From: Candidatus Abyssobacteria bacterium SURF_5
GTDB taxonomy: Bacteria; Abyssobacteria; SURF-5
Assembly (NCBI GenBank): GCA_003598085.1
Contig: QZKU01000142.1
Span: forward strand, 1-34,135
DNA length: 34,135 bases
Direction of reading: 5' to 3'
The first letter of the stretch is position 1, and every line of letters starts with the position of its first letter. The translations under genes were made by a program, and so were the position numbers. Of this stretch, positions 21,296-30,151 are shown piece by piece. The notes below the pieces were generated by a model, which saw only the letters and a program-made list of their open reading frames with translations, searched no databases and was not told where the DNA came from.

Positions 21296-21391
21296 CAGAT
21301 CTTTTTCCCCCGAAAGTAAGGCGAAAATCGGAATGACTAAAAAGAGCGCTTTGATATCTTAATAATAGATTCCGCTGCAGACCCCCCCCTT

Positions 21392-21449
21392 TGGTAGGGC
21401 CGAATTCATTCGGCCAGTCTTGAATGGGCCAATAAATTCGCACCTACCA
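21392..21449. repeat. Palindromic dispersed repeat (REP/MITE-like)
   Basis: TGGTAGG (21392-21398) and CCTACCA (21443-21449) are outer inverted ends. Inside, GGCCGAAT (21398-21405), TC, ATTCGGCC (21408-21415) is a perfect hairpin. The 58-base unit resembles the GTAGGGGCGAATTC... dispersed palindromes of many bacterial genomes. Its right end supplies the stop codon of the small zinc-ribbon gene. Confidence 0.65.
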
Positions 21450-21614
21450 TAGCGCGGTTGAACCCGAGAGTGGGGGTTTTGCAGCAGAATCAATAATAGA
21501 GACTTGCTCAACTTCATGCCGATGATAATACCCGCACGGACTCCAGCCGCAGTTGATGCACAATTCACAGCCTTCGGTGAAAATGACCACTCCCCCACAG
21601 CTTGGGCAGCTCAT
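21444..21614 (-). CDS. Small zinc-ribbon protein, like the C-terminal tail of B12-dependent ribonucleotide reductase
   Basis: A 56-residue protein beginning MSCPSCGGVVIFTEGCEL. Six Cys (3, 6, 16, 19, 22, 27) are arranged CPSC-N9-CELC-xx-CGWSPC, the same layout as the metal-binding C-terminus of NrdJ-type class II ribonucleotide reductases. No reductase body is present in the window, so this is a free-standing ribbon, possibly a relic or a thiol/metal-carrying small protein. The start is well supported: AAAGGAG lies eight bases upstream of the ATG at 21614. The last two residues and the stop (TGGTAG) come from the inserted palindromic repeat, so the original C-terminus was probably different. 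It follows lexA by about 95 bases on the same strand. Confidence 0.65.
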   Translation of the reverse strand: MSCPSCGGVVIFTEGCELCINCGWSPCGYYHRHEVEQVSIIDSAAKPPLSGSTALW

Positions 21615-21708: not shown

Positions 21709-22320
21709 TCAGTACCTTCTCATCAAGCCGACCACTATCCCCTGGACACGCACGTCGCGATTCTTCACGATGATCGGCTGCATCGATTCGTTTGCCGGCT
21801 GAAGGCGGATCGCATCTTTTTCACGATAATACTTCTTCAGTGTTGCATTCTCGCCGTCGAGCAGCGCAACGACCGTTTGCCCATTGTTGGGTGATTGCCC
21901 CTCGACCACAATTACAAAGTCGCCATCCATGATGTGATCGTCAATCATCGAGCTGCCTTTCACCCGCAGAACAAATTTTCTGAGCGGCGTCTTCGGAACC
22001 AACTCTGACGGAACCGCTATTGACTCGCGATTCTCGACGGCCTCAATCGGTGCGCCAGCCGCAATAAATCCAAGCAGCGGCAGTTCCACAACACCCCCCG
22101 AAAAATCCTCCGACTCTACCTCCAGACTTCGTTTTTTGTTTGATTCGTGCCGGATGAGCCCCTTCCGCCGCAACTGTGCAACATGCTTGTGAACCGTCGC
22201 GACCGACGACATTCCCAATGCAGCGCCGATTTCCTCCAAGCTCGGCGAATACCCATTCTGCGAAACAAATAAAGCGATATAGTCGAATACTTCTTTTTGT
22301 CTTCTCGTGAGAGCGGCCAT
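21709..22320 (-). CDS. lexA: LexA repressor
   Basis: The SOS repressor, which self-cleaves when RecA filaments form on damaged DNA. The N-terminal winged helix-turn-helix (residues 1-65, LTRRQKEVFDYIALFVSQNG) ends in a recognition region SPSLEEIGAALGMSSVATVHKHV. The cleavage site is Ala88-Gly89 (IAAGAP), the nucleophile Ser124 lies in GSSMIDD, and the general base Lys162 is in ATLKKYY. Length (203) is normal. GAGGAG lies eight bases before the ATG. It is divergent from the helicase-nuclease gene, and the 86-base gap holds overlapping promoters and a direct repeat, suggesting autoregulation and control of both genes. Confidence 0.96.
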   Translation of the reverse strand: MAALTRRQKEVFDYIALFVSQNGYSPSLEEIGAALGMSSVATVHKHVAQLRRKGLIRHESNKKRSLEVESEDFSGGVVELPLLGFIAAGAPIEAVENRESIAVPSELVPKTPLRKFVLRVKGSSMIDDHIMDGDFVIVVEGQSPNNGQTVVALLDGENATLKKYYREKDAIRLQPANESMQPIIVKNRDVRVQGIVVGLMRRY

Positions 22321-22336
22321 AAGATATACTCCTCAA

Positions 22337-22366
22337 TTGACGCGGCAACGTCTATATTGATACTAT
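22337..22366 (+). promoter_or_regulatory. Promoter of the helicase-nuclease gene
   Basis: TTGACG (22337-22342) and TACTAT (22361-22366) are spaced by 18 bases on the plus strand. The -10 overlaps the lexA -10 on the other strand, and the direct repeat at 22371-22389 would lie at the start of transcription, an ideal place for repression. Confidence 0.55.
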
Positions 22367-22393
22367 ACTAGGCGAAAGAAAGGCGAAAGTCAA
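22365..22393 (-). promoter_or_regulatory. lexA: lexA promoter
   Basis: On the minus strand TTGACT (22388-22393) and TAGTAT (22365-22370) are 17 bases apart. The start would fall near 22358, about 38 bases before the lexA ATG. The spacer is almost filled by the repeat GGCGAAAG. Confidence 0.6.
22371..22389. promoter_or_regulatory. Candidate LexA operator: direct repeat of 11-bp period
   Basis: GGCGAAAG occurs twice (22371-22378 and 22382-22389), three bases apart. The 11-base period is one helical turn and equals that of the direct-repeat SOS box GTTC-N7-GTTC of Alphaproteobacteria. The sequence itself differs, and no GAAC-N4-GTTC or CTGT-N8-ACAG box is seen nearby. It covers the lexA promoter spacer and the start of the helicase transcript, so one bound dimer would repress both. 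This is an inference. Confidence 0.5.
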
Positions 22394-22406
22394 GCGGAAT
22401 TTCATC

Positions 22407-24788
22407 ATGACAATTCGAATAGATGACTCCACCCGAACTATCCAAATGGGCGTTGGCGACCTGGTTCGGCTGATAAACCCGTCGGAGACATTTCGGACAG
22501 GCAGCTCCCAATTTGCGGCTCATTGGGGTCAGCAGGCGCATAAGCGCCTGTACGGCGAGGCCGCCCTTAACAAGCGTTCAACCGAGGTGCATGTGTCGCA
22601 TTCACTTGCACTTGGAGAATATTCTGCAGTTATCACGGGACGTATCGATCTGATCGTGGAGGCGGCCGACAAAACAATCGTTCAGGAAATCAAAACCGTT
22701 GCCGCGCCCGGGCAAACACTCGAAGCTGCGACGGAGGATAGCCTACCCTCGTTCCGTGATCAACTCCGGCTTTATCTGTACCTGCTTGAATGTTCCGGTT
22801 ATAAGAATCTGCACGGGGAATTGGTAGTGGTGAGCCTGATGGATGGCTCGATAGCAAGAATTCCGGTAACATACGACTTGGGGGCGGTATATCTGCTGAT
22901 ACGTTCCGTTCTTCTTGGAGTAGTACGTGAGCACGAACAGTCAACGGCGAGAAAGGATTACCGCCGTTCGCTGGCAAAGAGGATAGGTTTTCCCCATGAG
23001 GAGGCGCGCCGATACCAGGAGGAGGCGGCCGCGTCGGTACGGAACGCGCTGGAGACGCGAAACAATCTTCTCCTGAGCGCGCCGACGGGGGTGGGAAAGA
23101 CCGCTGCGGTGCTCGCGCCGGCGCTTCGTTTCGCGCTGGAGAACGATTTGCGCATATTCTGGGCAAGCGGCAAAAGTTCGCATCAGGAGATCGTAGCCAC
23201 CACGCTCAGGTTGATCTTGCCGCCCGACGCGCAGATTTCAGCTCTCTTTCTAATGGCCAAAGAGAAGCTTTGCCCGAATGAGCTTTTCTCCTGCGAGGAG
23301 CATCTTTGCAGGTATTCGCAGGAGTATTCTGCAAGATCGAATCAGGCGGCGGTGAAAGCTCTGCTGCAACAGCAATTGATTTTGCCGGAGGATGTAATTA
23401 GGGTTGCTCGCGAAAACGATACGTGTCCGTTCGAGCTTTCCCTGCAGGCGGCATCGAACGCCGATTTCATTGTGGGAGACTACAATTACGTTTTCGATCC
23501 GAAAAGTTCGTTGCGCAGGTTGCTGCCGCCGAAAAATCGGAGAGGATGGATTCTGATCATAGACGAGGCGCACAATCTGTATTCGCGGGCCAGAGGGTAT
23601 TTCTCGCCGTCCATCAGCGTTGAGGATATGCAGGAAGCCAGCCGAGCGGCCGGAGAAAGTCATGTTGCCCCGGATGGAGTTTTGTCCCTGCTTGACGAGG
23701 TGAAAACATATGTGAGTGAGATCGGCGGTGCACGCCCGTCCGAACGGCAGAATCAATTCATTGTCGAGATCGATAAGAATTTCTTCCGCGCTATCGGCGG
23801 CCGGACGAAGGAGATCCTTTCGGATTATTTTCTTGCGCGTCTTCGCGCTGGGATGGAGACCGGGGAAGATCCGCTCGCCCGATGTCTGACAGACATCGAC
23901 ACCTTCTGCACCATGTCCGCTCTCGAAGGCGATTTCGCATTCCTTTTTGATTCGACCGCCGCGCTCTTAAAGCAGGTATGCCTTGATCCTTCCCTGCAGA
24001 TCGGAAAGATCATTAATTCCTTTTTCAGCGTAATTGCCGTTTCGGCCACCCTGGAGCCGCATCGCTTCTTTCAGGATGTGCTGGGTTTTCCTGCCGACGA
24101 AACGATTGCGGCAAGTTTCCCGTCTCCGTTCCACCGCGAGAACAGGAAAATCGTGATCGTGCCCAATGTTTCCACAACATATCGAGACCGGACGCGCACC
24201 GCTCCCGGCGTAGCGCACATACTTCAGGAAATATCGGTGATCAAGCCGGGCAACTATGCCGCCTTCTTCCCGAGCTATGCGTATCTGCGCCTTATCGCAA
24301 CACACCTGCAAGATTTCTGCGGGAACCTTGTCATTCAAAAAGAGACGCTGCAGAAGAGCGACATAGTCGAAATGGTGAGGGTGCTTCGCGAGCGCCGGTC
24401 GACGAACTTGATTCTGGCAGTCCAGGGCGGCTCGCTGGCCGAGGGGGTGGATTACTCCGATAATTTGCTCGATGGGATCTTCATTGTCGGAGTGGGCCTG
24501 CCGGAACTCTCGCTGGAGAACGAGTTGCTCAAAGCTCATTTCGATGAAAAGTACTCGGCCGGATTCCAGTACGCGTACCTGTATCCCGGCATGATGAGGG
24601 TCATCCAGTCGGCCGGGCGCCTGATTCGGAGCGCCGACGATATCGGTTTCATCATTCTTATCGGAAGGCGGTATGCGACGCCGGCGTACAACTCCCTTCT
24701 GCCGCGCGACTGGTACAGGTATTCGATAGAAGAGCTTATCGCGAGCGATGCCGCCGCCGAAGTCCGCGCTTTCTGGGATTCGCTGTAA
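22407..24788 (+). CDS. DinG/XPD-type Fe-S helicase with N-terminal PD-(D/E)XK nuclease domain
   Basis: A fusion for DNA damage processing. The first 180 residues form a RecB/Cas4-like nuclease: GRIDLIVE (Asp81) and QEIKT (Glu94, Lys96) give the D...ExK catalytic triad. Then comes an SF2 helicase of the XPD/DinG group: Walker A APTGVGKT (225-232), four Cys (289, 296, 301, 340) able to hold a 4Fe-4S cluster, a DEAH box (386-389), and the motif VI region QSAGRLIRS near the end. Such helicases unwind 5'-3' and are damage-linked; E. coli dinG is SOS-induced. Length is 793. The ribosome site is poor. Being divergent from lexA behind a shared repeat, it is probably a LexA target. An anti-phage role is also possible. 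Confidence 0.88.
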   Translation: MTIRIDDSTRTIQMGVGDLVRLINPSETFRTGSSQFAAHWGQQAHKRLYGEAALNKRSTEVHVSHSLALGEYSAVITGRIDLIVEAADKTIVQEIKTVAAPGQTLEAATEDSLPSFRDQLRLYLYLLECSGYKNLHGELVVVSLMDGSIARIPVTYDLGAVYLLIRSVLLGVVREHEQSTARKDYRRSLAKRIGFPHEEARRYQEEAAASVRNALETRNNLLLSAPTGVGKTAAVLAPALRFALENDLRIFWASGKSSHQEIVATTLRLILPPDAQISALFLMAKEKLCPNELFSCEEHLCRYSQEYSARSNQAAVKALLQQQLILPEDVIRVARENDTCPFELSLQAASNADFIVGDYNYVFDPKSSLRRLLPPKNRRGWILIIDEAHNLYSRARGYFSPSISVEDMQEASRAAGESHVAPDGVLSLLDEVKTYVSEIGGARPSERQNQFIVEIDKNFFRAIGGRTKEILSDYFLARLRAGMETGEDPLARCLTDIDTFCTMSALEGDFAFLFDSTAALLKQVCLDPSLQIGKIINSFFSVIAVSATLEPHRFFQDVLGFPADETIAASFPSPFHRENRKIVIVPNVSTTYRDRTRTAPGVAHILQEISVIKPGNYAAFFPSYAYLRLIATHLQDFCGNLVIQKETLQKSDIVEMVRVLRERRSTNLILAVQGGSLAEGVDYSDNLLDGIFIVGVGLPELSLENELLKAHFDEKYSAGFQYAYLYPGMMRVIQSAGRLIRSADDIGFIILIGRRYATPAYNSLLPRDWYRYSIEELIASDAAAEVRAFWDSL

Positions 24789-24813: not shown

Positions 24814-26250
24814 TCATTTCGAGACGAGAACGACCGCGAGGCCCTCTCTTTCATCGTTAGTGTAAAGGATCACCAGATCATCGCGGTTGTCGTCGTTCAG
24901 ATTGAGTAGGGACATGCTTCCATAAGCGGGGACTTCAAGTCCGGCGGAGGGTTCGCGCGGAAGGACGTCGTCCATGTTGGTCAAGAAGAAAGAGAGGCGG
25001 TTCTCGGATGTGCCCACCACGAAATCGTCCAACCCGTCTCCGTTAAAATCGCCGGCCGCTCGTGCCGGCTCAGTCCCATCCTCGCTGGCCGGAATATATA
25101 TTGCTCTCGTAACCACCGGTCGTTCGCCGTACCGGCCGTCCTCCCCTATTCTCCGCAGTTCCGTCTCCACCCGGATGCGGTTGCGGATGAAATAATTAAT
25201 GAAGAAGCCAATGCCGACGTCGATGTCGTGCAGCAGGACTTCCAATTTGCCGTCGCCGGTAGCATCAAGGAAAACGGGGAGGACAAGACTTGAATCCGCC
25301 GCGAGCACCTGGTCCGGGCTGTCCTTGTAAGTGAAATCCTCGGCGCCGAAATAGATCTGCACTTCACTTTCCAGATTCTTCATCTGCGAGACCAGAACGA
25401 GCACCGCATCGGGAATGACATCGGCATTGAGGTCCATGAAACTGGAGGCACCGATAAAATCCTTGGTGAACTTGCGCAAAAGCGGACTGCTTTCGTGACG
25501 GTCCAGCGAAGAGGAGCCGTTTGAGAGGAAGAAGTCCATGCGCTCGAGATCGAACGCGCCGAGATCGATCCGCCCGTCGCTATCGAAGTCGGACAGCGCG
25601 ATTGCCGGGAGCCCGTAACCGATCGATTGCTGGTCCCCCTGCTGCCGGAACGAACCGTTGACCGGAAACTCGAACGTTCGGTCTTCGGCGAAGCGGAAAG
25701 CTTCATCCTGTACAAAAAGGCGCATCCCCTCGACCACTGGAACCAAAAGGTCCTTCCTTCCGTCGGCATTCAGGTCGGCGATCCAGTTCACGGAAGCGAC
25801 AAACCTGCTGGTTGGCGGTAAGAGGGAGCGGTGTAACAGAATCCTCCTCGAATTGACCACATTTGAGCCGCTTACCTTGAACAGCATCACGCCGTCGCCG
25901 TCGAAAGAGAGCAGATCATTCTTCCCATCAAGGTCGATATCATCGAGCTGAACTCCACTCGCCTGCTCGCCGAGGTGCATTTCGAAATTTGGATGAAGGG
26001 CGAATTTTCCATCTTGTTGCAGATAAACGCTGCAGGACTTATCTCGGGATTCTTTGGATGGTTTGCTGAAGAGCAGCAAGTCCGCCTGCCCGTCACCATT
26101 CATATCGCCCGCGCCCGCCGAAATGATGATTCCGGAAAGGCGGAACGAGAGGATTTCGTACTGCAAGTCCTCCTGACCGGCTGCATGAGACGAGAGACAG
26201 AAGAATGCGGCTGCAAGCAGGGGAAGCACCAAGAGCGGCGACCATCTCAT
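24814..26250 (-). CDS. Secreted FG-GAP/VCBS beta-propeller protein
   Basis: An exported protein with a Sec signal (hydrophobic residues 5-22, cleavage likely after SSHAAG). Eight calcium-binding-like repeats of the form DxNxDGxxD start near residues 49 (DMNGDGQAD), 104, 159, 221, 273, 329, 401 (DFNGDGLDD) and 450, spaced about 50-70 residues, fitting a seven- or eight-bladed propeller. Such proteins bind ligands or other proteins outside the cell; no catalytic residues are seen. The start overlaps the recN stop by four bases (ATGA), so its translation is coupled to recN, an unusual partnership. Length is 478. Function unknown. Confidence 0.82.
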   Translation of the reverse strand: MRWSPLLVLPLLAAAFFCLSSHAAGQEDLQYEILSFRLSGIIISAGAGDMNGDGQADLLLFSKPSKESRDKSCSVYLQQDGKFALHPNFEMHLGEQASGVQLDDIDLDGKNDLLSFDGDGVMLFKVSGSNVVNSRRILLHRSLLPPTSRFVASVNWIADLNADGRKDLLVPVVEGMRLFVQDEAFRFAEDRTFEFPVNGSFRQQGDQQSIGYGLPAIALSDFDSDGRIDLGAFDLERMDFFLSNGSSSLDRHESSPLLRKFTKDFIGASSFMDLNADVIPDAVLVLVSQMKNLESEVQIYFGAEDFTYKDSPDQVLAADSSLVLPVFLDATGDGKLEVLLHDIDVGIGFFINYFIRNRIRVETELRRIGEDGRYGERPVVTRAIYIPASEDGTEPARAAGDFNGDGLDDFVVGTSENRLSFFLTNMDDVLPREPSAGLEVPAYGSMSLLNLNDDNRDDLVILYTNDEREGLAVVLVSK

Positions 26251-27971
26251 ATTGATTTTCGGGAGAGCGCCAACAATTCCTGCGCGTGCTTTAATGATAT
26301 GTTTCCGGTGGCATCGCCGCCCAGCATCCTGGCAATCTCCCGGATGCGTTTTTCTCCTTGTGGAAAGCTGATTTCGGTGCGCGTTCGGCCGCCCGCCACC
26401 AGCTTATCGACTACAACATGATTATGCGCCATCGCGGCGATTTGTGGCAAGTGCGTGATGCAGATAACCTGGCGCGAGGCCGCGACCGTACTCAACTTTT
26501 CAGCTATGCGCATCCCCATGCTGGCGCCCACGCCGGCATCAATTTCGTCAAAGATAACGACCGGCACCTTGTCGGTCTCGGCAAGAATCGTCCGAAGAGC
26601 GAGCATGATGCGCGAGATTTCGCCGCCTGATGCGATCGCAGCCAACGGTTTCGGCGGCTCCCCTACGTTCGCCGACATGAGAAATTCAACTGTATCAATG
26701 CCCCAACTGCTGGTTTTCCAAGTCTTTCCCTTATATGTCACCAGCCCGTTGGGCGCCTCCTCTTGCTGCACCGAAACGAGAAATCTGGCTTTATCCATGC
26801 CAAGCTCGCGCAGGTGCGCCTGCACGTTTCTTTCCAGCCGATTCGCCGCCTCAATCCGCTTTTGCGACAGAACCATCGCCAGCTTGCCCGCTTGTTCGCT
26901 CACCAATTGAATTTCTTCGCTCAACCGATTTTTTTCAGAGGACGAACCGGTAAGACGATCCAGTTCCGACTGCATGTCTTCGGCGAGATCGAGGAGCGCA
27001 TCCAACGATTCGCACCGGTAGCGACGCTTCAGTTTCGATATCGTCTGTAGCCGGCTTTCAAGGGCGTCGAGTTCGGCGGGATCATATTCAAGACGGCTCA
27101 GGTAATCCTGCAACAGCGAGGAAAGCTCCGCCAACTTGTAGCGAATGTCTTCGTATTCCCGCAACGATTGAGCAAAACCATGATCGATCCGTCCGACTTC
27201 CTGCAGAGCATGCATGAGAGCATCCCACGTTCCCGCAATCGGCTGCGGATTCTTCTCGCCGCCGGCCAGCATATCGTAGCTCTCGCCGATGAGGCGGTGA
27301 ATGTTTTCAGAGTTGGCGATGACGCTTCGCCGCGTCTTTATCTCCTCGTCTTCGCCGCGTGTCAGTCCGGCCTGCTCGATCAGCTTCAGTTCTTCCCTCA
27401 ATTCTGCGACGCGCTGGTTGCGATGGGATTCCTGCGCTATGATGCGTTCCAGCGTGGCTATCCGCTGCTTCAAATCGCCATAGCGCTGCCGCATCATGGT
27501 CGCATCGGCGCCGAGCCCGGCGAATTCATCGAGCAGCGCCAGATGTTTCTTCGGGTTGATCAACGACTGGTGCTCGTGCTGGCCGTGCATGTCCACCAGG
27601 CTCTCGCCGACAGTCTCGAGCAGGTTCAGCGTCACGAGCGAGCCGTTGAGGAAGCACTTGCTCTTGCCGTCGGCCGTAATAATCCTCCTGAACAAAAGCT
27701 CGTCGTTCGAGGCGTCCAACTCCATCGATTCTATGACTTCTTTTGTCTTGAAACAGGCGCAAATGTCAAATGCGGCCTCGATCTCCGCCGACGATGACCC
27801 CCGCCGGATGACGCCGGCGCTCGCTCTCTGGCCGAGAAGAAGATTCATTGCATCGATAATGATGGATTTGCCCGCGCCGGTTTCACCGGTCAACACATTC
27901 AAGCCGGGCTTCCAAGGGATTATCAGATCGTCGATCAGCGCGAAATTCCGAATGTGAAGCATGTTCAACAT
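26247..27971 (-). CDS. recN: DNA repair protein RecN
   Basis: An SMC-like ATPase that joins DNA ends during double-strand-break repair. Walker A GETGAGKS (29-36) follows the family start LHIRNFALIDDL; Walker B is VVIFDEIDAGVGASMG and VICITHLPQIAAMAH follows. The central region is a coiled coil. Length (574) is normal. It starts two bases after the nadK stop; a second in-frame ATG at 27962 is equally possible. RecN is a classic SOS gene, but no SOS-like box is obvious at the operon promoter, which is at 30180-30208. Here it lies in a tlyA-nadK-recN operon, an arrangement found in many bacteria. Confidence 0.96.
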   Translation of the reverse strand: MLNMLHIRNFALIDDLIIPWKPGLNVLTGETGAGKSIIIDAMNLLLGQRASAGVIRRGSSSAEIEAAFDICACFKTKEVIESMELDASNDELLFRRIITADGKSKCFLNGSLVTLNLLETVGESLVDMHGQHEHQSLINPKKHLALLDEFAGLGADATMMRQRYGDLKQRIATLERIIAQESHRNQRVAELREELKLIEQAGLTRGEDEEIKTRRSVIANSENIHRLIGESYDMLAGGEKNPQPIAGTWDALMHALQEVGRIDHGFAQSLREYEDIRYKLAELSSLLQDYLSRLEYDPAELDALESRLQTISKLKRRYRCESLDALLDLAEDMQSELDRLTGSSSEKNRLSEEIQLVSEQAGKLAMVLSQKRIEAANRLERNVQAHLRELGMDKARFLVSVQQEEAPNGLVTYKGKTWKTSSWGIDTVEFLMSANVGEPPKPLAAIASGGEISRIMLALRTILAETDKVPVVIFDEIDAGVGASMGMRIAEKLSTVAASRQVICITHLPQIAAMAHNHVVVDKLVAGGRTRTEISFPQGEKRIREIARMLGGDATGNISLKHAQELLALSRKSI

Positions 27972-27973
27972 GA

Positions 27974-28849
27974 CTATCTGCGTCCCCAGTTCAATTTGTT
28001 CCTCAGCACTTCAAAATAGCTTTTATTTGCCGAGGCGGCCAGGCGGATTGTATGGGGCGATTTCTTGATAATCACCTGATCCCACTGGTGCAGCTCGACC
28101 GCTATCTGGCCGTCGATCATCAACCCCGGCGAGGCATGTTCAGAGGCGATGACAACTCTCGTCACCTGGTTTGAAGAGAGCACCAGCGGACGATTGGTCA
28201 GCATGTGAGGGCAGATGGGTGTAATAACAATTGCCTCGGCTTCCGGATAGATAATGGGGCCGCCGGCTGAGAGCGAATGCGCCGTCGAGCCGGTCGGAGT
28301 CGAAATGATCAACCCGTCACAGGCGTAGGTGGCAAGAAACTCCTCATCCACGTACGTCTCCAGCATCAGCATCCTTTCCAGAGCATCCCGCTGTATGACG
28401 ACGTCGTTCAGGGCTACCTGCTCGCGATGGATCGAGCCGTCGGAATGGATCACCGTGCAGTCCAGCATCATGCGTTCCTCGATCCGGTGCAGGCCCTGCA
28501 GCACCTCCTCGAGTGTGGTGAAGACTTCGGTCTCGGTGACTCCGGTGAGAAATCCAAGACCGCCCACTTTCACGCCGATCAGCGGCGTGCTGCACCCGTT
28601 CATCTGTTTGGCGACGCTGAGCATGGTGCCGTCGCCTCCAAATGCGATGATGAAGTCGACAAGACGCGGCAGTTCGCGGCTCTGTTTGTATTCGAGAGGC
28701 AAGTCCAACATGCCGGATACCGAGGCGTCCATAAGAACCTCGAGTCCCCGGCGCCGCAGCCAATCGACAACCTGCTCGATCAGCGGAAATGAGCCGGTCT
28801 TGGTTGGATTTACGATAATGCCTACGCTTTTGATCTTCTTCTTTTCCAT
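27974..28849 (-). CDS. nadK: NAD kinase
   Basis: Phosphorylates NAD to NADP with ATP or polyphosphate. The conserved GGDGTML motif (residues 71-77) provides the catalytic Asp, and the second motif TPTGSTAHSLSAGGP follows. The nucleotide-binding fold is complete; 291 residues is typical. I favour the ATG at 28849, two bases after the upstream stop, over the GTG at 28870, which would overlap the upstream gene. It belongs to the tlyA - zinc ribbon - nadK - recN operon. Confidence 0.95.
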   Translation of the reverse strand: MEKKKIKSVGIIVNPTKTGSFPLIEQVVDWLRRRGLEVLMDASVSGMLDLPLEYKQSRELPRLVDFIIAFGGDGTMLSVAKQMNGCSTPLIGVKVGGLGFLTGVTETEVFTTLEEVLQGLHRIEERMMLDCTVIHSDGSIHREQVALNDVVIQRDALERMLMLETYVDEEFLATYACDGLIISTPTGSTAHSLSAGGPIIYPEAEAIVITPICPHMLTNRPLVLSSNQVTRVVIASEHASPGLMIDGQIAVELHQWDQVIIKKSPHTIRLAASANKSYFEVLRNKLNWGRR

Positions 28850-28851
28850 GG

Positions 28852-29388
28852 TTACCGAAGGAATCGCCACAGGTTTATGAGCTGACGGGCAAGCGTGATA
28901 CCGGGATGATATCCGGCCCCAAATGTGGTCCCGCCGAGCTCAAGCGTCTTCTTCAGTCCATCCTTTCGGCGGCGGTCCTCCTTCTTTTTCGCCTCGCTTT
29001 GTCGCATCCGTTCTTTGTTCTGAATGCGCTTTTCTTCGAGGTACGTCTTGTAAATCATCAATTCGCCTTTATCAAACCAGAAACCATGGCAGCCGGGGCA
29101 ATAGTCGATATGCAGCCCTTGCGGCAGATTCATGCCCTCTTGCTCGGTGAGATAAATCTCGCAGCGCGGACAAAAGAGAGCTGTGTCTCTCGGCTCTGTG
29201 ACGATTTCGTCAAGCTCGACGTCGGATTCAACCTCGAGTGCCGAATCGCGGCTGAGAGCGAAGGCCACGTCGCGATCGACCCAAATTCCCATGCAGGCAT
29301 TGCACTGGTACAACTGGAGCACAGTCCCATAATGGCCTACCGTGTCTTGCTGCCGCATCAATTCCCGACATTTCGGGCATCGGACCAT
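28852..29388 (-). CDS. Double zinc-ribbon protein (zf-TFIIB type)
   Basis: A 178-residue soluble protein with two TFIIB-type zinc ribbons: CPKC at 4-7 with CNAC at 29-32, and CPRC at 73-76 with CPGC at 97-100. Each is followed by a GxW(V/F)D motif (GIWVDRD, GFWFDKGEL) typical of this family. The C-terminal third is highly charged (EAKKKEDRRRKDG). No function is established. GAGGAGG five bases upstream gives a strong start. It sits between tlyA and nadK and would be translated with them. Confidence 0.85.
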   Translation of the reverse strand: MVRCPKCRELMRQQDTVGHYGTVLQLYQCNACMGIWVDRDVAFALSRDSALEVESDVELDEIVTEPRDTALFCPRCEIYLTEQEGMNLPQGLHIDYCPGCHGFWFDKGELMIYKTYLEEKRIQNKERMRQSEAKKKEDRRRKDGLKKTLELGGTTFGAGYHPGITLARQLINLWRFLR

Positions 29389-29398
29389 TCGCTCCTCC

Positions 29399-30151
29399 TC
29401 AACCGATGGGCTTCGCCAGATAGATAAAAAACTCCTTGTTTCCCGCGGGCCCGAGCAGCGGCGACTCGATCACTCCTCGCGAGAGCAGGCCCGAGTCGGC
29501 CGCGAAATCGCTGATCTTCTGAATCACGCGGCGGTGGACGGCGTCGTCTCGCACGACTCCGCCTTTGCCCACGTGTTCGCGCCCGGCCTCGAATTGGGGT
29601 TTGATCAGGGCCATAATTTCACCGTCGGCAGACAGCACCGCGGCCGTCGCCGGCAACACCAGAGTGAGTGAAATAAAGGAGACATCGATTACGGCAAACT
29701 GAGGTGGCTCCTCGAACATGTCCCTTTGCAGGTTGCGCGCGTTCGTCCGCTCCAGTACCACGATGCGCGGATCATTTCGCAATTCCCACGCAAGCTGACC
29801 GTACCCGACATCAACGGCATACACTTTCCGCGCGCCGTACTTCAAGAGGCAATCCGTGAAACCGCCCGTCGAGGCGCCGACATCGAGCGCTATTTTGCCG
29901 TCGAGGTCAGGGTGAAAATGGTCGAGCGCGCTCTTGAGTTTTTCGCCGCCGCGACTGACAAACTCGCTTTTTTCCGATACTTCGAGGACGCTTCCCGGTT
30001 TCACGACCGCACCCGCCTTGTCGGCAATGTTTGAGTCGATTTTGACCGATCCGCCAAGGATCAAAGCCCTTGCCTTGGCGCGAGTTGCAACTACATTCAA
30101 CTCGACCAGCAACTTGTCGAGTCTCTCCTTTTTTCCTGCAATAAACTGCAC
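29399..30151 (-). CDS. tlyA: TlyA family rRNA 2'-O-methyltransferase
   Basis: A SAM-dependent methyltransferase of the TlyA family; in mycobacteria and others it methylates C1920 of 23S rRNA and often C1409 of 16S rRNA. The N-terminal S4 RNA-binding domain covers about residues 8-68 (ERLDKLLVELNVVATRAKARALI), and the SAM motif is DVGASTGGFTD (90-100). Later landmarks are VIDVSFISL and LIKPQFEAGREHVGKGG. It starts at GTG, with GGAG about ten bases upstream. Length is 250. It is first in a five-gene operon, driven by the promoter at 30180-30208. Confidence 0.94.
   Translation of the reverse strand: MQFIAGKKERLDKLLVELNVVATRAKARALILGGSVKIDSNIADKAGAVVKPGSVLEVSEKSEFVSRGGEKLKSALDHFHPDLDGKIALDVGASTGGFTDCLLKYGARKVYAVDVGYGQLAWELRNDPRIVVLERTNARNLQRDMFEEPPQFAVIDVSFISLTLVLPATAAVLSADGEIMALIKPQFEAGREHVGKGGVVRDDAVHRRVIQKISDFAADSGLLSRGVIESPLLGPAGNKEFFIYLAKPIG

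Follow-up and report, generated by a model that had tools for sequence, protein, structure and literature searches.

The stretch of DNA analysed here (34,135 nucleotides, hereafter the window) is one entire contig of the 5.1-Mb genome of Candidatus Abyssobacteria bacterium SURF_5, which is assembled in 145 contigs. In this window, a lexA gene and a gene encoding a fused nuclease-helicase of the EndoDinG type were found back to back, and the gap between them contains a short direct repeat predicted as the operator of the adjacent LexA protein (LexA1). The divergent gene pair and its 86-bp gap (22321-22406) lie exactly where a first-pass annotation, made by a model from the letters alone, had placed them.

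The direct repeat between lexA and the nuclease-helicase

The repeat units, i.e., GGCGAAAG, were located at 22371-22378 and 22382-22389. Read along lexA, they form TTTCGCC-TTTC-TTTCGCC with a period of 11 bp. Two overlapping sigma70-type promoters had been proposed in the gap, and both were recovered; three promoter-like sites were counted, against 0.4 +/- 0.6 in shuffled sequences. The repeat had also been placed inside both promoters. It does lie fully in the spacer of the lexA promoter, whereas on the helicase side it begins 5 bp downstream of the predicted -10 element and covers the predicted start and the first ~17 transcribed bases, not the promoter core. The ATG of the helicase is 17 bp past the operator.

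The exact GGCGAAAG-N3-GGCGAAAG pattern occurs as one copy only in the genome. A wider regulon was considered and rejected, because matches with 1-3 mismatches equalled the reversed-pattern control and were nearly all intragenic. Since near-matches with 2-3 mismatches were no commoner than this control, only the exact copy is meaningful. The repeat was not found at other SOS genes, i.e., it is not upstream of recA, dinB or the second lexA of this genome, and no strong site was found within the window near recN (26247-27971), which lies close behind nadK. Within 260 bp upstream of lexA, no GTTC-N7-GTTC was detected, TTTC standing there instead, and neither of the palindromes GAAC-N4-GTTC and CTGT-N8-ACAG was found. 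An arrangement of three tandem units was also rejected, as the sister genus (G001) has no counterpart of the imperfect third unit (22393-22400).

A weaker repeat of the same kind was found downstream of lexA (Table 1). In G001, a comparable weaker site lies ~310 bp downstream of lexA (G001:C228:66930-66952, - strand). In both genomes the site is just beyond the end of a converging gene, and no same-strand gene follows it.

Table 1. Features of the lexA and nuclease-helicase locus, in window positions
Feature	Position	Strand	Evidence or remark
lexA (LexA1), 203 aa	21709..22320	-	TIGR00498 (E 3e-60), PF01726, PF00717
lexA promoter, TTGACT-17-TAGTAT, spacer filled by the operator	22365..22393	-	-35/operator/-10 layout also in relatives
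LexA operator (predicted), TTTCGCC-N4-TTTCGCC direct repeat, period 11	22371..22389	-	+ strand reads GGCGAAAG AAA GGCGAAAG
Helicase promoter (predicted), TTGACG-18-TACTAT	22337..22366	+	Prediction; faces the lexA promoter, -10 elements overlap
EndoDinG-type nuclease-helicase, 793 aa	22407..24788	+	PF12705, PF06733, PF06777, PF13307
PD-(D/E)XK nuclease domain, ~aa 38-165	22518..22901	+	H45, E60, D81, E94-x-K96
XPD/Rad3-type helicase core, aa 199-769	23001..24713	+	Four-cysteine iron-sulfur (FeS) motif C289, C296, C301, C340; PDB XPD matches
Second, weaker operator-like repeat, TTTCGCC-TTAC-TTTCGGG	21309..21326	-	~380 bp downstream of lexA

Conservation of the repeat and covariation with the LexA recognition helix

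The first-pass annotation had proposed a comparison of lexA upstream regions among relatives. At the family level, two further genomes were compared, i.e., G001 and G002, and genes in other genomes were called with a simple open reading frame (ORF) script, without a gene finder. In G001, whose LexA is 72% identical to LexA1, the repeat is not absent but perfectly kept, as TTGACTTTCGCCTAACTTTCGCCTATAAT between the -35 and -10 elements, 187 bp before lexA. G002 is without a close LexA1 and has the paralogue LexA2. An operator-like ATGACTTTCGCCAAACTTTCGCT was observed in this genome (G002:C19:26103-26125) with no clear gene downstream, and it is possibly a relic. More distant lexA genes carry the repeat at the same promoter place, i.e., TTGACTTTCGCCAAAATTTCGCC in G058 (LexA 54% identical) and CTTTCGCCTCTGTTTCGTCTA in G026 (46% identical).

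The comparison was extended to 79 named lexA loci from Acidobacteriota, Gemmatimonadota, delta/myxobacterial metagenome-assembled genomes, Nitrospinota and Patescibacteria whose upstream DNA could be used. In some of them the lexA start was set by alignment, and the upstream region may miss the true promoter. TTCG-N7-TTYG precedes lexA in 71/79 loci, against 7/79 for the reversed sequence and 0.7 in shuffles; because these loci were picked by similarity to the window LexA, this share cannot be carried over to all LexA proteins. When spacers of 2 to 15 were tested, only 7 stood out, the next best reaching 16 loci. In a test free of sequence assumptions, 34 of the 79 promoters had exact 6-mer direct repeats with an 11-bp period (5.4 expected); other periods, and inverted repeats, gave no comparable peak. 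In genomes that carry the repeat, paralogous lexA genes have another box at the equivalent promoter place.

LexA1 is composed of a winged helix-turn-helix domain and an S24 peptidase domain. The recognition helix reads SSVATVHKHV, with lysine at position 45 (K45). The cleavage site A88-G89 and the catalytic S124/K162 are invariant in the alignment. The residues for autocleavage are thus intact, and RecA-stimulated self-cleavage is predicted. The helix was found to vary together with the operator. LexA proteins with K45 (VHKH) go with TTCGC or TTCGT half-sites (44/44), and those with Glu45 (VHEH), i.e., Gemmatimonadota-type loci and, besides those, Patescibacteria, go with TTCGG (31/31). Residue 45 and the base following TTCG agree in 75/75 loci (Lys with C/T, Glu with G), a count that overstates the independent evidence, because only one or two independent changes underlie it. 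In addition, two Acidobacteria LexA proteins (L182 and L220) with the helix NGVYKH/NGVFKH were observed beside the promoter repeat ATTCACC-N4-ATTCACC/TTTCACC. Their half-site, TTCAC, is a third variant, and the 11-bp period is unchanged.

The box was also found before other genes. In G058, the box stands before a small gene, after which come genes for a LexA/UmuD-like peptidase and a Y-family polymerase, i.e., a umuD-like and umuC operon; a dinB-type gene follows the lexA of G058. The box is also upstream of an HNH-endonuclease gene and a DinB_2 gene in G026. The former (G026:C33:594-1707, L126) stands right behind the LexA-type direct repeat and matches the IscB model partially, in the HNH part only. 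When 12 Acidobacteria-type genomes were searched, the exact box preceded, in one genome, a gene whose best match is the error-prone DNA polymerase dnaE2; the remaining eight exact matches were all at lexA, and the reversed pattern gave 0 matches.

The repeat is shared by relatives, sits at a constant promoter position and varies along with the recognition helix; it is very probably the operator of the adjacent LexA, whose binding is predicted.

The nuclease-helicase, its neighbourhood and further LexA proteins

The first-pass description of a DinG/XPD-type helicase with an added PD-(D/E)XK domain agrees with the domain search, in which PDDEXK_1 (2e-6, above cut-off), DEAD_2, HBB and Helicase_C_2 were matched. 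H45, E60, D81, E94 and K96 are invariant in 11 homologues, as are the four FeS cysteines and the helicase motifs (Walker A and DEAH). By sequence, PDB 9kqh is a full-length relative (E 2e-74). In section 3.7 of PMC11981726, EndoDinG is defined by an N-terminal PD-(D/E)XK domain with H, E, D and E-x-K, an XPD helicase and a four-cysteine FeS motif. The window protein has these residues and, judged by them, is an EndoDinG, i.e., a member of a described family, with predicted endonuclease and helicase activity.

Relatives of the helicase at 25-39% identity are scattered across many families. They were present in other genomes and plasmids, and none were found with peptide patterns in viral contigs and GTDB contigs. 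Among 23 full or partial relatives, none had lexA in the ~1.5-kb flanks. No known SOS box was found in the 250 bp before the match, a negative of limited reach because some matches are partial and the true promoter may lie farther off. In G001 the gene order is lexA, FG-GAP gene, recN and nadK, i.e., the order of the window minus the helicase. lexA and the helicase do not form a conserved module. As G001 has both the order and the operator, the EndoDinG gene would either have been inserted beside an older, already existing lexA operator or have been lost in G001. Of the earlier description of the locus as a self-contained module, the part that stands is that the repeat belongs to this locus alone in the genome; the pairing of the genes is not kept, the sister genus being without the helicase.

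Several neighbouring genes were recorded. recN, an FtsJ/S4-domain (TlyA-like) gene, a zinc-ribbon gene and nadK are closely packed near lexA (26247-30151, - strand), and the recN-nadK-zinc-ribbon neighbourhood is kept in G001. Directly downstream of lexA is a small zinc-ribbon-like ORF (MSCPSCGGVVIFTEGCELCINCGW..., 21444-21614, - strand). It may form an operon with lexA, because a similar CELCINCGW peptide is encoded at the equivalent place in G001.

A second LexA gene was found in the window genome on another contig (G000:C68:10579-11256, L342), and its product is 45% identical to LexA1. The LexA2 promoter contains TTGACAAGTATACAAATGTATACTATA with the palindrome GTATACAAATGTATAC, which is exact at the LexA2 gene of G001 and has one mismatch at that of G002. 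A wide regulon for this palindrome was rejected, as other matches in the three genomes were not above control. In the window genome, no exact copy of either operator was found away from its own lexA. LexA1 and LexA2, each with a predicted operator of its own, fit the model of duplicate lexA genes with diverged boxes (PMC8565304). The gene after lexA2 overlaps it (L342 2251-2931) and, read by eye, resembles a RecA/KaiC-type ATPase whose P-loop is degenerate. In G001, a third LexA type (C208:39690-40286, L053) was observed ~2 kb upstream of recA; its promoter contains another palindrome, i.e., ACCGTCATTAGACGGT.

Proposed regulation and relation to known direct-repeat operators

In the proposed mechanism, a LexA dimer would occupy one face of the DNA, bound to two TTTCGCC half-sites of equal orientation at a distance of one helical turn. 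Half-sites of the same orientation would require one DNA-binding domain to be turned relative to the dimer axis, as would the alphaproteobacterial repeat. Because the operator fills the -35/-10 spacer, bound LexA1 would stop RNA polymerase at the lexA promoter. The same binding would shut the facing EndoDinG promoter, whose predicted start is inside the operator. Upon DNA damage, RecA filaments would stimulate self-cleavage of LexA at Ala88-Gly89 and both genes would be expressed. EndoDinG would then unwind and nick damaged or stalled DNA until LexA builds up again. On this evidence, joint control of lexA and the helicase by LexA1 is probable. It is also rather likely that LexA1 runs a two-gene lexA/EndoDinG circuit through the tandem operator; as the operator is unique in the genome, this circuit would be private, beside a second LexA with a palindromic operator.

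Several points weigh against this reading. The helicase promoter is a 9/12 match, a prediction without comparative support that was not found in the sister genus, and the lexA-EndoDinG pairing was seen in one genome only. The covariation amounts to two changes on a helix-masked tree, of which only one falls on well-supported branches. recA of nine genomes is without the box, so induction of the circuit would depend on a RecA not itself controlled by LexA1. The proposed circuit does not account for the second operator-like site downstream of lexA. The sequence itself shows the anatomy of the locus, the intact residues, and the conservation, position, spacing, covariation and uniqueness of the repeat; from it we infer the binding of LexA1, the repression of the helicase, the induction by damage and the role of the enzyme in processing stalled or broken DNA.

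The repeat could instead be an operator for lexA alone, the helicase being a recent and unrelated arrival with constitutive or unregulated expression of its own and a facing promoter that arose by chance. In favour of this, no divergent gene accompanies the operator in the sister genus, the helicase gene, whose distribution among relatives is patchy, was seen beside lexA nowhere else, and the helicase promoter is an imperfect match. However, the helicase ATG is so near the operator that any promoter close to the gene must overlap or face it, the promoter-like sites in the gap exceed those in shuffles, and the helicases DinG and YoaA are LexA targets elsewhere, according to PMC11981726. Control of lexA alone is considered unlikely. 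It is far less probable that the repeat serves the promoter without any link to LexA, e.g., as an activator site or as a spacer favoured by a sigma factor or by DNA bending. Its constant place between -35 and -10 in lexA promoters would suit such a feature, and LexA1 binding is itself predicted from sequence, but the half-site tracks the LexA recognition helix, the box also precedes umuDC-like, dnaE2 and HNH genes, and the lexA paralogues have a different box at that place. Membership of the helicase in CRISPR type IV (CasDinG) or another anti-phage system, with an incidental LexA link, is hardly credible and was rejected: the PADLOC typeIV_DinG model matches (2e-102), but as a general DinG-family match, no cas domain was found in the 20 window proteins scanned beside LexA1 and the helicase, the intact PD-(D/E)XK and four-cysteine FeS motifs mark EndoDinG, and CasDinG is described in PMC10450177 with a vestigial FeS domain.

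The operator and the enzyme can be compared with known systems. The alphaproteobacterial LexA box, GTTC-N7-GTTC, is a direct repeat (PMC8565304, PMC3323433). The window operator shares with it the single half-site orientation, the 11-bp period, the TTC core and the location in the lexA promoter. However, the half-site is TTTCGCC here (TTCGG in the Glu45 relatives) instead of GTTC, the helix is VHKH/VHEH instead of GIHRL, and the carriers belong to other phyla. A box of the GTTC-N7-GTTC type is attributed to Acidobacterium capsulatum by Mazon 2006, as cited in PMC3323433 and PMC7739468. The Balneolaeota LexA motif, TTACACATATTTTWTACATA, is likewise a direct-repeat operator (PMC7739468), in which ACATA recurs at 11 bp in our reading of the consensus, although its sequence and phylum are different. 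Thus, of the earlier claim that the operator is unlike common SOS boxes, it holds that the repeat is not palindromic, whereas direct-repeat LexA boxes with an 11-bp period were already known. The geometry, as read from sequence, is that of these known boxes, and the half-site sequence differs. No description of this exact box was found in the literature searched, but it may have been described before in some groups, most of all in Patescibacteria, and part of the box distribution may already be published.

The enzyme resembles the EndoDinG of PMC11981726 in its N-terminal PD-(D/E)XK residues, XPD-type helicase and four-cysteine FeS motif. It differs in facing lexA across an operator; LexA control is unmentioned in section 3.7 of that paper, and LexA control of an EndoDinG enzyme was not found described in the literature. 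As with dinG and yoaA of Escherichia coli in the account of PMC11981726, an XPD-family helicase gene is concerned, with LexA control predicted here. Those genes have no nuclease domain, are not beside lexA and have the palindromic CTGT-N8-ACAG operator. As in the duplicate-lexA model (PMC8565304), two or more LexA paralogues with their own operators share a genome, but here the exact copy of each operator is only at its own lexA.

In a quick tree, a supported branch separated all direct-repeat LexA proteins, including the alphaproteobacterial one, from the palindrome readers. This suggests that the direct-repeat LexA described here and that of Alphaproteobacteria may form one lineage, with an unsure placement for the long alphaproteobacterial branch. 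The authors of PMC7739468 concluded that direct-repeat recognition arose independently several times. A wider reading, regarded here as possible rather than probable, is that direct-repeat operators mark one old LexA lineage of Acidobacteriota, Gemmatimonadota, delta/myxobacterial groups, Nitrospinota, Patescibacteria and perhaps Alphaproteobacteria. In this lineage, a code at position 45 (Lys for TTCGC/T, Glu for TTCGG) would retune the half-site, with orientation and the 11-bp period fixed. Under this reading, lateral transfer would not be needed to explain the alphaproteobacterial-type box of Acidobacterium, and LexA1 in the window genome would have shrunk to a private circuit that captured the nuclease-helicase.

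LexA is known for changes of its operator during evolution. In the very large set of LexA proteins concerned here, orientation and period stay constant and the identity of one operator base goes with that of one helix residue, which makes the change of specificity directly testable. The repeat offers a predictive SOS box for phyla in which no description was found, and the window locus is a candidate case of a LexA-controlled EndoDinG enzyme.

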